From contig JANXWS010000078.1 of the NCBI GenBank assembly GCA_025351005.1, positions 1-55,684 of the forward strand: DNA of 55,684 nucleotides, in the 5' to 3' direction. Below the pieces are notes generated by a model. It saw only the letters and a list, made by a program, of their open reading frames with translations, did no database searches and was not told where the DNA came from. A program made the translations under genes and the position numbers. The stretch is from Pseudomonadota bacterium (lineage in GTDB: Bacteria; Pseudomonadota; Gammaproteobacteria; Steroidobacterales; Steroidobacteraceae). Shown piece by piece: positions 37,745 to 43,813 of this stretch; position 1 is the stretch's first letter, and every line of letters begins with the position of its first letter.

Positions 37745-38623
37745 ATGATCACGAGCGCCGACCACCGCACGCCAGGACCCCCCGCAGGTGCCGCGGCCGA
37801 CTGGACGATCCCGCAGCGGTGGCGCGACTACACGCCGGCCGAGCACGCGATGTGGGACCGCCTCTATGCGCGCCAGACGGCACAGCTACCCGGCCGCGTC
37901 GTGCCCGCATTCCTCGAAGGGATCGAGCGACTGGGTTTTGCCGAGCGCGGGATTCCGGACTTCGCCCGACTCTCGGCGCGCCTCGGCGCGCTGACCGGCT
38001 GGTCGGTGGTCACGGTCCCGGGCCTGGTGCCGGAAGCCGTCTTTTTCGAGCATCTCTCGCAGCGGCGCTTCGTCGCCGGCCGCTTCATCCGGACACCGGA
38101 GCAGATCGACTACCTCGAGGAACCGGACATCTTTCACGACGTGTTCGGCCACGTGCCGTTGCTCGCGCACCCGGTCTTCGCCGACTACATGCAGGCCTAC
38201 GGCGAGGGCGGCCTGCGGGCGCTCCGGTTCGGCTCGATCCACCGGCTGGCGCGGCTCTACTGGTACACGGTCGAGTTCGGGCTGATCCGCGACGGCGCGG
38301 CGCTCCGCATCTACGGTGCCGGCATCGTCTCCTCGCACGGCGAGTCGCTGTACGCGCTCGACGACCCGGCGCCACGCCGGATCGCATTCGACCTGCGACG
38401 CACGATGCAGACTCGCTACCGGATCGACGACTACCAGACCAACTACTTCGTCATCGACAGCTTCGAAGATCTGCTGCGGCAGACGGTCGAAACGGACTTC
38501 GCGCCGCTCTACCGCGAGCTCGAGACGCTGCCGGAGATCGAGCCGGGCGTGGTGCTGCCGGGCGATCGCGTGCTGCCGCCGAATCCACCATCCGGTGCCG
38601 ACTCCGGGAGGCGCGCACCGTGA
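37745..38623 (+). CDS. phhA: phenylalanine 4-monooxygenase
   Basis: A 292-residue iron- and tetrahydropterin-dependent aromatic amino-acid hydroxylase, making tyrosine from phenylalanine. The iron ligands sit in EEPDIFHDVFGHVPLLAHPV (two His) and a Glu in YWYTVEFGLI. The substrate-binding block YGAGIVSSHGE and the C-terminal YRIDDYQTNYFVIDSF are also intact. Length fits bacterial PhhA without the mammalian regulatory domain. First gene of an operon with an SDR (gap 51 bases) and phhB, which recycle the pterin cofactor. Confidence 0.96.
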   Translation: MITSADHRTPGPPAGAAADWTIPQRWRDYTPAEHAMWDRLYARQTAQLPGRVVPAFLEGIERLGFAERGIPDFARLSARLGALTGWSVVTVPGLVPEAVFFEHLSQRRFVAGRFIRTPEQIDYLEEPDIFHDVFGHVPLLAHPVFADYMQAYGEGGLRALRFGSIHRLARLYWYTVEFGLIRDGAALRIYGAGIVSSHGESLYALDDPAPRRIAFDLRRTMQTRYRIDDYQTNYFVIDSFEDLLRQTVETDFAPLYRELETLPEIEPGVVLPGDRVLPPNPPSGADSGRRAP

Positions 38624-38674
38624 GCGGATCCGGCAGCGACGGCCGCCCGCGCGGCGCGGGCACGGCGAACGCCG

Positions 38675-39373
38675 ATGTCTGAGCCGCGGCCACGGGCCGT
38701 GGTGATCACGGGCGGCTCGGGCGCACTTGCGCCGGTCGTCGCCGCGACCTTCGTCGCCGCGGGTTACCGCGCGGCGCTCCTCGGCCGCAGTCCGCCGCCG
38801 GGCGCGCCCCCGGAACGACGGGCGGATCGACTCTACGCGGTGGGCGCCGGCGACCTCGCCGACCCCGCCGCGGCCGAGGCGGCGCTCGCGAGCGCGGCCG
38901 ACGTCCTGCAGGGCTGCGACGTGCTGGTCAACGTCGCCGGCAGCTTCCGCTGGGAGCGCATTGCCGGCGGCTCGACCGCGACCTGGGAGACGCTCTACGC
39001 GAGCAATCTGAAGACCGCGCTCAACATGTCGCGCGCCGCCATTCAGCGGCTCGCCGCTGGCGGGCGGATCATCAACATCGGTGCCGCCGCGAGCGCGCAG
39101 GCGGCGGCCGGAATGGGCGCCTACGCGGCGGCCAAGTCGGCAGTCGCACGCCTGACCGAGAGCCTCGCGGCCGAGCTCCGCGACCGCGACATCACCGTCA
39201 ACGCGGTGCTGCCGAATGTCATCGACACGCCCCGCAACCGCGCCGACATGCCGACCACCGACCGCTCGGCGTGGACTTCGCCGGCGGCGATCGCGGACGT
39301 GATCCTGTTCCTCGCCTCGCCCGCGGCGCGAGCGATCAGCGGCGCGCTGCTGCCGGTCACCCGGCCGGCGTGA
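38675..39373 (+). CDS. SDR-family protein, probable dihydropteridine reductase (QDPR-like)
   Basis: A 232-residue short-chain dehydrogenase. Nucleotide loop VVITGGSGALAPVVA at about residues 9-23; NVAG at about 87; catalytic YAAAK (Tyr at about 149). The C-terminal part VLPNVIDTPRNRADMP followed by TTDRSAWTSP closely follows the vertebrate quinonoid dihydropteridine reductase pattern TP-x-NR-x2-MP-x2-D-x-S-x-WT. Placed between phhA and phhB, reduction of quinonoid dihydropterin with NADH or NADPH is the natural role. Other SDR activities cannot be excluded. Confidence 0.75.
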   Translation: MSEPRPRAVVITGGSGALAPVVAATFVAAGYRAALLGRSPPPGAPPERRADRLYAVGAGDLADPAAAEAALASAADVLQGCDVLVNVAGSFRWERIAGGSTATWETLYASNLKTALNMSRAAIQRLAAGGRIINIGAAASAQAAAGMGAYAAAKSAVARLTESLAAELRDRDITVNAVLPNVIDTPRNRADMPTTDRSAWTSPAAIADVILFLASPAARAISGALLPVTRPA

Positions 39374-39389
39374 CCCGGAGCGGCGCCTC

Positions 39390-39683
39390 ATGGCAACGAC
39401 CCTGGTGAGCACCGCCGAGCGCGACGTGCGGCTCGCCGGGCTTCCGGGCTGGAGCTACGACGCGGCGCACGGCGCGATCTCGAAGTCGTTCCGCTTCCCG
39501 GACTTCGTCGCGGCCTTCGGCTTCATGGCGCGGGTCGCACTCGTCGCCGAGCGCGCCGGACATCACCCGGACTGGAACAACGTCTATGACCGCGTCGACA
39601 TCCGCCTCACGACCCACGACGCCGGCGGCCTGACGCAGCGGGACTTCGAACTCGCGCAAGCGATCGAGCTGCTCGCCGACTGA
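39390..39683 (+). CDS. phhB: pterin-4a-carbinolamine dehydratase
   Basis: A 97-residue PCD/DCoH protein. The active-site stretch is AERAGHHPDWNNVYDRVDIR followed by LTTHDAGGLTQRDFELA, including the conserved His pair and the T-x-HDAGG loop. It dehydrates the 4a-hydroxy-pterin produced by PhhA to quinonoid dihydropterin. A GGAG site lies ten bases before the ATG, 16 bases after the SDR stop. It completes a three-gene hydroxylase and recycling operon. Confidence 0.96.
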   Translation: MATTLVSTAERDVRLAGLPGWSYDAAHGAISKSFRFPDFVAAFGFMARVALVAERAGHHPDWNNVYDRVDIRLTTHDAGGLTQRDFELAQAIELLAD

Positions 39684-39947: not shown

Positions 39948-40982
39948 ATGTCGTCCGTCTCCACCACGCTGCGGCGCATCGCGCTGCCCGTACTCGCCGG
40001 CCTGTCGTTCGTGCCGGCCGTCAGCGCCGACGAGATCACCGGCGCCGGATCCTCGTTCGCCTATCCGATCCTGTCGAAGTGGTCGACGGACTACAACGCA
40101 AAGACCGGCGACAAGCTCAACTACCAGTCGATCGGCTCGGGCGCCGGCATCGCGCAGATCAAGGCGGCAACGGTGACCTTCGGTGCGTCCGACAAGCCGC
40201 TGACGCCGGAGGAACTCAGCAGCGCGGGCCTCGCGCAGTTCCCGGTCGTGATCGGCGGGGTCGTGCCGGTATTCAATCTGGACGGCGTCGAACCCGGCAA
40301 GCTCAAGCTCAGCGGCGCCGTGCTCGCCGGCATCTTTCTCGGCAGCATCACAAAGTGGGACGACCCGGCGATCGTGAAGCTGAACGCCGGACTCAAGCTC
40401 CCCGACGCCGCGATCACCGTCGTGCACCGCTCGGATTCCTCCGGCACGACCTTCAACTTCGTGAACTACCTGTCGAAAGTCAGCCCCGAATGGAAGAGCA
40501 AGGTGGGCGAGGGAACAGCCGTCTCCTGGCCGGTCGGCATCGGCGGCAAGGGCAACGAAGGCGTCGCCGGCTACGTCAGACAGATCAAGAACTCCATCGG
40601 CTACGTCGAGTACGCCTACGTCAAGCAGAACAAGATGGACTACGCGCAAGTGCAGAACCACGCGGGCAAGTTCATCCAACCGAGCGGCGACTCGTTCCAG
40701 GCCGCCGCCGTCACGGCCGACTGGAAAAACGCGCAGGACTTCAACCTCGTAATAACCGACGCGCCGGGCCCGGACGCCTACCCGATCGCCGCGTCGGTGT
40801 TCGTCATCATGTACCGGGAGCCGAAGGACGCTCCGGTATCCAAGGCGGCGCTCAAGTTCTTCCGGTGGGTGCTCGAGAACGGCCAGCCGCAGGCCACGGA
40901 ACTCGACTACGTCGCGCTGCCGCCGGCGCTCGTCAAAATGATCGAGGCCTACTGGAAGCAGAATATAAAGGTTACGCTGTAA
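39948..40982 (+). CDS. pstS: phosphate ABC transporter, periplasmic binding protein
   Basis: A 344-residue PstS with signal peptide (LRRIALPVLAGLSFVPAVSA). Phosphate-binding loops are visible: ITGAGSSFAYPILSKW, then ATVTFGASDKPL, then VVHRSDSSGTTFNF. Length and motifs match the E. coli-type protein. AAGGGG seven bases before ATG is a good ribosome site. First gene of pstSCAB, behind a candidate Pho box and followed by a stable hairpin before pstC, which may raise PstS levels over the membrane parts. Confidence 0.97.
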   Translation: MSSVSTTLRRIALPVLAGLSFVPAVSADEITGAGSSFAYPILSKWSTDYNAKTGDKLNYQSIGSGAGIAQIKAATVTFGASDKPLTPEELSSAGLAQFPVVIGGVVPVFNLDGVEPGKLKLSGAVLAGIFLGSITKWDDPAIVKLNAGLKLPDAAITVVHRSDSSGTTFNFVNYLSKVSPEWKSKVGEGTAVSWPVGIGGKGNEGVAGYVRQIKNSIGYVEYAYVKQNKMDYAQVQNHAGKFIQPSGDSFQAAAVTADWKNAQDFNLVITDAPGPDAYPIAASVFVIMYREPKDAPVSKAALKFFRWVLENGQPQATELDYVALPPALVKMIEAYWKQNIKVTL

Positions 40983-40987
40983 GTCGC

Positions 40988-41019
40988 GGTCGGGGTCCCG
41001 GCGGCCCGGAGCCCCGACC
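40988..41019 (+). terminator. hairpin between pstS and pstC
   Basis: GGTCGGGG (40988-40995) pairs with CCCCGACC (41012-41019), an 8-bp GC-rich stem starting five bases after the pstS stop. It lacks a U-tract. Such an element can act as a partial terminator or protect the pstS 3' end, giving more PstS than PstCAB. Confidence 0.5.
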
Positions 41020-41109
41020 CGCCTCCTCATGTCCGCGGCGCGCCCGGAGCGCCAGTGGAGACGATGCGGGGAACGGCGCAAGCTTCCTGGTCCACACCCG
41101 AATGCCCCC

Positions 41110-42126
41110 ATGAGCGAGACGGCCAACGCTGATGCACCGCCGGGCCCGCGGCACGGGCCGGCCCCGGCACCGCCGCGGCCGCGACGGCGCCGGTCGTCGG
41201 ACACTGCGGCGGACGGTCTCTTCCACGTGCTCGCCGCCGGTGCCGGCTACCTGGTGCTCGGCATCCTGCTGGCCGCCGCACTGTCGATGCTGTGGGGCGG
41301 GCGCAAGGCCTTCGCGACCTTCGGACTGCACTTTTTCACGAGCACGCAGTGGGACGCGGTTGCGCAGAAGTTCGGGGCGGTGGTGCCGATCTACGGCACC
41401 GTCGTCAGCTCGACGATCGCGATCATCATCGCGGTACCGATCAGCCTCGGCATCGCGATCTTCCTCACCGAAATCGCGCCGCGCTGGCTGCGGGTACCCG
41501 TCGGCACCGCGATCGAGCTGCTGGCGGCGATTCCCAGCATCATCTACGGTATGTGGGGCCTGTTCGTGTTCGTGCCGTTCATGGCGACGTACATCCAGCC
41601 CTGGCTGATCGCGCACCTGGGCCCGCTGCCGGCCTTCGGTGCGCTCTTCCGCGGCGCGCCTATCGGCATCGGCATGCTGACCGCGGGCATCATCCTCGCG
41701 ATCATGATCATCCCGTTCATCACCGCCGTCATGCGCGACGTGTTCCTGGCGGTGCCGAACGGCCTCAAGGACGGCTGCATCGCGATGGGCTCGACCACCT
41801 GGGAGGTGATCCGCCACGTCGTGCTGCCGTACACGCGTTCCGCGGTCATCGGCGCCATCTTCCTCGGCCTCGGCCGGGCGCTCGGCGAGACGATGGCGGT
41901 GACCTTCGTGCTCGGCAACACCCACGACCTCAAGCTGTCGCTGCTCGAGCCGGGCAACTCGATCGCGGCGACGCTGGCAAACGAATTCACGGAGGCTGAC
42001 TCGGACATGTACCTGTCGTCGCTGATCGCGCTCGGCTTCGTGCTGTTCCTCGTGACCCTGGTCACGCTGGCCATCGCCAAGCTGCTGCTGCTGACCGTCG
42101 ACCAGCGCAAGCTGCAGCGCCGGTAA
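41110..42126 (+). CDS. pstC: phosphate ABC transporter permease PstC
   Basis: A 338-residue permease with six segments and the BPD transport motif near DVFLAVPNGLKDGCIAMGST and LGRALGETMAVTFVLG. The N-terminal 35 residues are a Pro/Arg-rich cytoplasmic extension (PAPAPPRPRRRRSSD). The start at the ATG at 41110 was preferred over a further upstream frame running through the intergenic hairpin region. It pairs with PstA. Confidence 0.96.
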   Translation: MSETANADAPPGPRHGPAPAPPRPRRRRSSDTAADGLFHVLAAGAGYLVLGILLAAALSMLWGGRKAFATFGLHFFTSTQWDAVAQKFGAVVPIYGTVVSSTIAIIIAVPISLGIAIFLTEIAPRWLRVPVGTAIELLAAIPSIIYGMWGLFVFVPFMATYIQPWLIAHLGPLPAFGALFRGAPIGIGMLTAGIILAIMIIPFITAVMRDVFLAVPNGLKDGCIAMGSTTWEVIRHVVLPYTRSAVIGAIFLGLGRALGETMAVTFVLGNTHDLKLSLLEPGNSIAATLANEFTEADSDMYLSSLIALGFVLFLVTLVTLAIAKLLLLTVDQRKLQRR

Positions 42127-42131
42127 CGCCC

Positions 42132-42977
42132 GTGCTCGGCCTCCGCACCCGCCGCCAGATCGCCAATCGCGCGATGGTCGGCCTGTCGATGCTGGCGACT
42201 GCCGTCGGCCTGTTCTGGCTCGGCTGGATCATGCTGACGACGCTGCGCTACGGCCTCGGCGCTCTCAGCACCCGCCTGTTCACGCAGATGACGCCGCCAC
42301 CCGGCAGCGAGGGCGGCCTGCTGAACGCCTTCTACGGCAGCTTCGTGATGGTGCTGATCGCGATCGTCCTCGGCACGCCGATAGGCGTGCTGGCCGGAAC
42401 CTTCCTCGCCGAGTACCACCGCCAGACGCGCACCGGCGCCGTGATCCGCTTCGTCAACGACATCCTGCTGAGCGCTCCGTCGATCGTCATCGGCCTGTTC
42501 GTCTACGAGCTGCTGATCCGGCGCATCGGGCATTTCTCGGGCTGGGGCGGCGGCATCGCGCTCGCGATCATCATGCTGCCGGTCATCGTCCGCACGACTG
42601 ACGAGATGCTGCAGCTGCTGCCGGCCAATCTGCGCGAGGCCGCCTTCGCGCTCGGCATCCCGCGCTGGAAAGTCGTCTCGGCCGTGCTGTACCGGGCCGC
42701 CAGCGCCGGCATCCTGACCGGCGTGCTGCTGGCAGTCGCCCGCATCAGCGGCGAAACCGCCCCGCTGCTGTTCACGGCCCTCAACAACCAGTACTGGTCG
42801 AGCAGCCCGAACGGGCCGCTGGCGAACGTCCCGGTCGTCATCTTCCAGTTCGCGATGAGCCCCTATGACAGCTGGCACGAACTCGCCTGGGCGGGCGCCT
42901 TCATCGTGACGATGTTTGTGCTCGCGCTCGCCGTCACCTCGCGGGCACTGCTCGCGAAGGGCAAGCGCGGCCAATGA
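42132..42977 (+). CDS. pstA: phosphate ABC transporter permease PstA
   Basis: A 281-residue permease starting at GTG, five bases after pstC. PstA hallmarks: [20 protein letters not shown], the EAA-loop region [20 protein letters not shown], and [20 protein letters not shown]. Six membrane segments. Its stop overlaps the pstB start (ATGA), coupling translation. Confidence 0.96.
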
Positions 42978-43813
42978 ACGAGGGCAGCCCGGGCGCGCCG
43001 CGCGCGCAGCCAGCGGACGAGTTGCGCAAGCCCGCGGCCGCCGAGCCCGCGACGGCGTCGGCGCCGCGTCTGTCGGCGCGCGGCGTCAACTTCTACTACG
43101 GCAAGCACCTCGCGCTTGATAACGTCTCGCTGGACTTCGAGGACCGCAAGATCAGCGCGATCATCGGTCCGTCCGGCTGCGGCAAGTCGACGCTGCTGCG
43201 GATCTTCAACCGGATCTACTCGCTCTACCCCGGGCAGCGCGCCACGGGCAGCGTGGTGCTCGACGGCGAGGACATCCTGGCCCGCGAGACGCCCGTCAAC
43301 GAGCTGCGGGCCAAGGTCGGCATGGTGCTGCAGACGCCGACTCCGTTCCCGATGTCGATCCAGGACAACGTCGCGCTCGCGATCCGCTACCACGAGAAGC
43401 TGAGCCGCGTCGACCTCGACGAGCGCGTCGAGAACGCCTTGCGGCAGGCGGCCCTGTGGGACGAGGTCAAGGACGTGCTCAAGAAGAGCGCGCTGTCGCT
43501 CTCCGGCGGCCAGCAGCAGCGCCTCTGCATCGCGCGCGCCGTCGCAGTGGAGCCGCAGATACTGCTGATGGACGAGCCGACCGCGGCGCTCGACCCGATC
43601 GCGACCCTGAAGATCGAGGACCTGCTGAGCGATCTCGAGCAGCGCTACACGATCATCATCGTGACGCACAACCTGCAGCAGGCCGCGCGGGTCTCGGATC
43701 TGACCGCCTTCATGCTGATGGGCCGGCTGATCGAGTTCGGGCCGACCGAGCGGATTTTCACCGACCCGGTCTCGAAGGAGACCAACGCCTACGTCACGGG
43801 ACGGTTCGGATGA
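42974..43813 (+). CDS. pstB: phosphate ABC transporter ATP-binding protein
   Basis: A 279-residue ATPase with a 30-residue Ala/Pro-rich leader before the domain. Walker [11 protein letters not shown]-loop [15 protein letters not shown] (Thr where most PstB have Lys), signature [15 protein letters not shown], Walker [21 protein letters not shown] and switch His in [13 protein letters not shown]. Other PstB usually read DEPCSALDPIST, so this is a slightly divergent branch. No phoU follows; an ArsR-type gene takes its place. Confidence 0.96.

Follow-up and report, generated by a model that had tools for sequence, protein, structure and literature searches.

Pterin recycling and the phh operon

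The phh operon of the Pseudomonas type consists of phhA followed by phhB, and to our knowledge no dedicated gene has been assigned to the enzyme by which bacteria reduce the spent pterin of phenylalanine hydroxylase; a literature search found none. Two quinonoid pteridine reductases of E. coli, presumably Hmp and a nitroreductase, are flavoproteins rather than SDRs, and are not known to lie in a phh operon. That two such enzymes exist, carrying out the reduction of quinonoid dihydropterin in a bacterium, is stated in one paper (PMC1971073), and another has engineers giving E. coli human PCD and DHPR for monapterin recycling (PMC10354952). In other bacteria, according to two papers, tetrahydromonapterin for PhhA is supplied by FolM (PMC5587915, PMC13259868). 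In the open-access literature searched, including the accessible portions of PMC9048412 and PMC3223725, we did not find a QDPR (dihydropteridine reductase) in a phh operon.

The window analyzed here is the whole stretch of 55,684 nucleotides of contig JANXWS010000078.1, from a gammaproteobacterium of the Steroidobacteraceae. Like the Pseudomonas-type operon it has phhA and phhB together, but it adds a reductase gene between them. We consider it likely that the product of this added gene is a bacterial quinonoid-dihydropterin reductase, belonging to the SDR lineage that lies behind or beside eukaryotic QDPR.

Gene content of the operon

As the initial annotation had proposed, three open reading frames on the plus strand at 37745-39683 form a phhA-SDR-phhB arrangement, with the families matched by Pfam and NCBIfam. 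The first (37745..38623, 292 aa) is phhA, encoding a monomeric phenylalanine 4-monooxygenase that matches Pfam Biopterin_H at 5.5e-44 and exceeds two NCBIfam phenylalanine 4-monooxygenase cut-offs, including that of TIGR01267 (311.4 bits, cut-off 264.75). It contains H131DVFGH136, which we take to be the phenylalanine hydroxylase signature. The second (38675..39373, 232 aa) is an SDR (Pfam adh_short, 1.1e-33) that trees, motifs and NCBIfam matches assign to the QDPR lineage, as described below. The third (39390..39683, 97 aa) is phhB, encoding a pterin-4a-carbinolamine dehydratase (Pfam Pterin_4a, 2.7e-33) that is above two 4a-hydroxytetrahydrobiopterin dehydratase cut-offs (NF002018, 126.2 bits, cut-off 108) and has, starting at residue 54, the full ExxxHHPx5Yx9H pattern, presumably the PCD active-site signature. 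The gaps are 51 nt between phhA and the SDR gene and 16 nt between the SDR gene and phhB. PhhA and PhhB are both intact and encoded on one strand.

The genome is 2.7 Mb in 90 contigs and 86% complete, and phhA is its single match to PF00351. The window SDR is not part of a set of close copies, because its 11 further matches in the same genome are only 28-36% identical to it. Downstream of the operon, at 39948-43813, we noted by eye an apparent phosphate ABC transporter set (binding protein, two permeases, ATPase), which is unrelated.

Motifs and residues of the SDR

The C-terminal motif of the window SDR, D184TPRNRADMPTTDRSAW200, has as its counterpart in human QDPR DTPMNRKSMPEADFSSW, and the general pattern LPxxxDTPxNRxxMP...W is common to the window SDR and the eukaryotic QDPRs, for which we used the structures PDB 1hdr, 1ooe and 3orf. 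Judged from the alignments, this likeness is beyond chance, yet it is not QDPR-specific: all 22 aligned bacterial relatives from the order sample have D184, T185, N188, R189, M192, P193 and W200 without exception. The animal-type motif pointed out in the initial annotation is present, but its core is common to these SDR relatives, and we rejected the motif alone as proof of QDPR identity. Since it belongs to the whole bacterial clade, the QDPR claim rests on other tests.

The window SDR also has GGxGAL and GMxxYxxxK in common with eukaryotic QDPR, and three active-site positions align with human QDPR: Ala137 at the site of the usual catalytic Ser, Tyr150 and Lys154. By alignment column, the Ser site is Ala in 19 of the 22 clade members and Ser in the other three, two of which sit in phh operons; when one instead counts 13 residues back from the Tyr, the residue reads Gly or Pro in loci L043, L046, L049 and L060.

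The differences from eukaryotic QDPR are also clear. The window SDR is bacterial, lies inside a phh operon and is only 27% identical to human QDPR, and the AGGW(A/S)GG(N/S)A segment (AGGWAGGNA) reads AGSFRWE. QDPR has, where its second strand ends, an Asp that goes with NADH use; Gly37-Arg38 takes its place in the window SDR, which suggests NADPH as the coenzyme, while a sister sequence (L040) has the Asp.

Profile search and phylogeny

We searched the 249 genomes of the phylum sample with a profile built from three eukaryotic QDPRs, scoring no more than 11 candidates in any genome; across our SDR and QDPR genome surveys this number was 9-11 at most, and weaker relatives may be missed. At 1e-8 the profile matched 27 of the 249 genomes with 32 matches in total, and the best 22 of the 32 were all members of the bacterial SDR clade to which the window SDR (4.3e-17) belongs; the first match outside the clade came at 2.6e-12. 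Scores overlap slightly, clade rows spanning 43.7-100.9 bits and the best other SDR reaching 47.8 bits. Clade membership was defined as at least 200 bits with a profile of the bacterial SDR clade, or at least 170 bits for the 78-row tree described next.

In a tree of 65 rows, a branch with support of 100/99 separates 34 bacterial clade rows and the three eukaryotic QDPRs from the 28 rows of other SDRs, among which are E. coli FolM and two FabGs (two of the 28 rows, L006 and L193, are the same gene). The split is retained at 99/92 after removal of four motif stretches, and again at 100/99 in the tree of 78 rows, which has 14 further clade rows. In that larger tree, QDPR falls together with the window SDR within a core of 29 rows (97/97). 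The 14 added rows come from the class sample; 11 of them make one sub-branch (100/98), and the QDPR profile gives the added sequences 49-87 bits. An earlier tree of 94 rows gave the same split (SH-aLRT 99), as did a tree from which 19 other-SDR rows, either long branches or near-copies, had been left out (99, or 87 without motif columns). Another 12 rows (10 clade and 2 other), near-copies or thinned, were left out of the 65- and 78-row trees. The stem leading to eukaryotic QDPR is long, and in the AU test a bacterial clade without QDPR was not rejected (p 0.139), making nested and sister placement both compatible with the data.

The SDR thus did not fall into an unrelated clade, an outcome that had been named as counting against the QDPR reading; relative to the other SDRs sampled, it groups with eukaryotic QDPR with or without the motif columns. 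By its sequence, the window SDR belongs to the QDPR lineage and is not a member of the animal QDPR family in the strict sense. The label "vertebrate QDPR-like" accordingly holds as to lineage, while "vertebrate" overstates the case for a protein with 27% identity, without the coenzyme Asp and the AGGWAGG segment, and from a wide bacterial lineage.

Linkage with phhA and phhB

We surveyed phhA neighborhoods in three samples of related genomes that overlap. In the order sample, the SDR was found in 22 of 296 genomes (E <= 1e-30) and phhA in 54, with both in 11. The SDR adjoins phhA in six of these 11 genomes, and in the other five the two genes are on different contigs. Besides the window, then, five genomes of the order have the SDR beside phhA and phhB, in two gene orders: phhA-SDR-phhB in the window and G285, and phhA-phhB-SDR in G113, G121, G234 and G280. 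Four of these genomes (G285, G121, G234 and G280) have a gene for an Lrp/AsnC-type regulator running divergently from phhA, and in G234 a class V aminotransferase gene follows the SDR. In the phylum sample, the SDR was present in 22 of 249 genomes, phhA in 61 and both in 15, and the genes were adjacent in two, the window and the more distant G520, of another family. The latter has the order HPPD-phhA-SDR (contig C15, 4231-7116), with no phhB seen within about 1.5 kb; here an SDR of this kind belongs to a cluster for phenylalanine/tyrosine catabolism. The three-gene linkage described in the initial annotation thus recurs in two gene orders, with G520 as a third setting. Six of 51 rows are linked, a distribution that takes three changes on the tree to explain.

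Linkage is rare among genomes with phhA (6/54 in the order, 2/61 in the phylum and 1/46 in the class sample), and many genomes with the SDR lack phhA (11/22, 7/22 and 12/15, respectively). As to co-occurrence, the order sample has phhA in 11 of 22 SDR genomes vs 43 of the 274 without the SDR, and the phylum sample has it in 15 of 22 vs 46 of 227. In the class sample, where the SDR is in 15 of 293 genomes, phhA in 46 and both in three (one of them weak), the figures are 3/15 vs 43/278, with no enrichment (p 0.43). With this result, and with genomes that are related and samples that overlap, we dropped co-occurrence as a main argument. Because the class sample shows no phhA enrichment, the SDR lineage as a whole cannot be tied to PhhA: beyond PhhA, its members either have another substrate or maintain tetrahydropterin in its reduced form where cells put it to a different use.

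These counts bear on the possibility that the window SDR, though related to QDPR, acts on a different substrate, being a dehydrogenase of phenylalanine/tyrosine catabolism or a general SDR picked up by the operon, with QDPR activity being eukaryotic only. Many clade members do occur in genomes without phhA and beside genes that, read by eye, have no evident pterin link, and in G520 the SDR follows HPPD and phhA in a tyrosine-catabolism setting. We nevertheless find this explanation unlikely: the SDR gene is found between phhA and phhB or next to them, and the pterin is what the chemistry of their two products has in common; moreover, the protein in the window groups with QDPR and has lost the Ser.

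Some other surroundings of QDPR-lineage SDR genes were noted. Within a few kb of such a gene, open reading frames resembling tryptophan 2,3-dioxygenase and kynureninase (L180, in G330) or kynureninase (L188, in G203) were seen by eye. In G716 (contig C1, 1912157-1942564), one full and two short SDR copies (L210, L212 and L213; the short ones 163 aa, with the same score) lie within about 30 kb.

Pterin supply and FolM

The window genome also has a FolM-like SDR with the sequence TGGGRRLG, located about 600 bp from a FolB/FolX-type gene on the opposite strand (loci L193 and L197, contig C63, 63216-64851). De novo supply of tetrahydropterin is plausibly covered by these two genes, which would therefore leave the operon SDR free for recycling.

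A reductase of 7,8-dihydropterin of the FolM/PruA/PTR1 kind, making the tetrahydropterin cofactor de novo, would be another way for an SDR to serve PhhA. The window SDR is in the same family and has a probable pterin substrate, NCBIfam TmpR (dihydropteridine/dihydrofolate reductase) is among its weaker matches (85.6 of 325 bits), and FolM is, according to two papers, the known SDR behind the tetrahydromonapterin of PhhA (PMC13259868, PMC5587915). The mark of pteridine reductases given in one of these is TGX3RXG (PMC13259868); it is absent from the window SDR, which reads TGGSGALA, whereas the genome's separate FolM-like gene carries TGGGRRLG near its folB-type neighbor. FolM is also placed elsewhere on the tree, among the other SDRs, and we think a FolM-type role very unlikely for the operon gene.

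Database models and the FabG name

Among 18,950 NCBIfam models, the best for both the window SDR and human QDPR is NF004204, named "3-oxoacyl-ACP reductase FabG" (the model PRK05653.2-5, and perhaps the same as CDD model PRK12828). Human QDPR scores 71.7 bits with it and 42.5 bits with the next model. All 22 clade members and all three QDPRs, including those of a nematode and Dictyostelium, match NF004204, as they do some other models, and the window SDR is below its cut-off (226.5 of 352 bits). The FabG name is ill-suited to a protein that has lost the Ser, and is probably misleading.

The top PDB match of the single window SDR was a FabG-type SDR, and the solved QDPR 8b5t came 20th among the 60 matches listed (2.3e-17). 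With the clade profile, the 60 PDB matches listed were FabG-like and other classical SDRs, with no QDPR; Foldseek with the AlphaFold model of the window SDR (pLDDT 91.4, pTM 0.90) likewise gave FabG-like and classical SDRs and no QDPR among 50 listed matches. PDB sequence rank and Foldseek did not separate QDPR from FabG, and we rejected them as discriminators. A contig scan with the single SDR protein gave at least 30 loci with SDRs 25-37% identical, which served as other-SDR rows; at 1e-6, none of the loci listed had a match to phhA or phhB.

An ordinary FabG-type 3-ketoacyl-ACP reductase that lies beside phhA by chance would agree with the name of the best NCBIfam model and with the top PDB and Foldseek matches among those listed, but is extremely improbable for a protein that is below the NF004204 cut-off, has Ala at the Ser site of the Ser-Tyr-Lys triad found in FabG, splits from two FabGs at 100/99 and belongs to a lineage that adjoins phhA in three separate places on the tree.

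Proposed function and significance

We propose that the window SDR is probably a dedicated quinonoid-dihydropterin reductase, with NADPH as its coenzyme. PhhA would hydroxylate phenylalanine and leave a 4a-hydroxy-tetrahydropterin, which PhhB would dehydrate to the quinonoid dihydropterin; the SDR would then return this to the tetrahydro form with hydride from NAD(P)H via Tyr150 and Lys154 and, like QDPR, would do so with no Ser at the usual catalytic site. Monapterin would be the most likely pterin, and phhA, the SDR gene and phhB would be expected to be co-transcribed. Three neighboring genes may thus encode the complete cofactor cycle.

The presence of a QDPR-lineage gene in phh operons provides a direct candidate for the pterin-recharging reductase of bacterial phenylalanine hydroxylase, and the assignment would correct a misleading FabG name. 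The lineage of the window SDR is also a bacterial relative that bears on the origin of animal QDPR. More tentatively, and as a reading less likely than not, we suggest that this bacterial SDR lineage gave rise to eukaryotic QDPR, that the operon is a living bacterial example of the full cycle, and that a large group of proteins best matched by a FabG model consists of pterin recyclers, also where phhA is absent. If this is true, the SDRs in bacteria without phhA would guard tetrahydromonapterin against oxidation.
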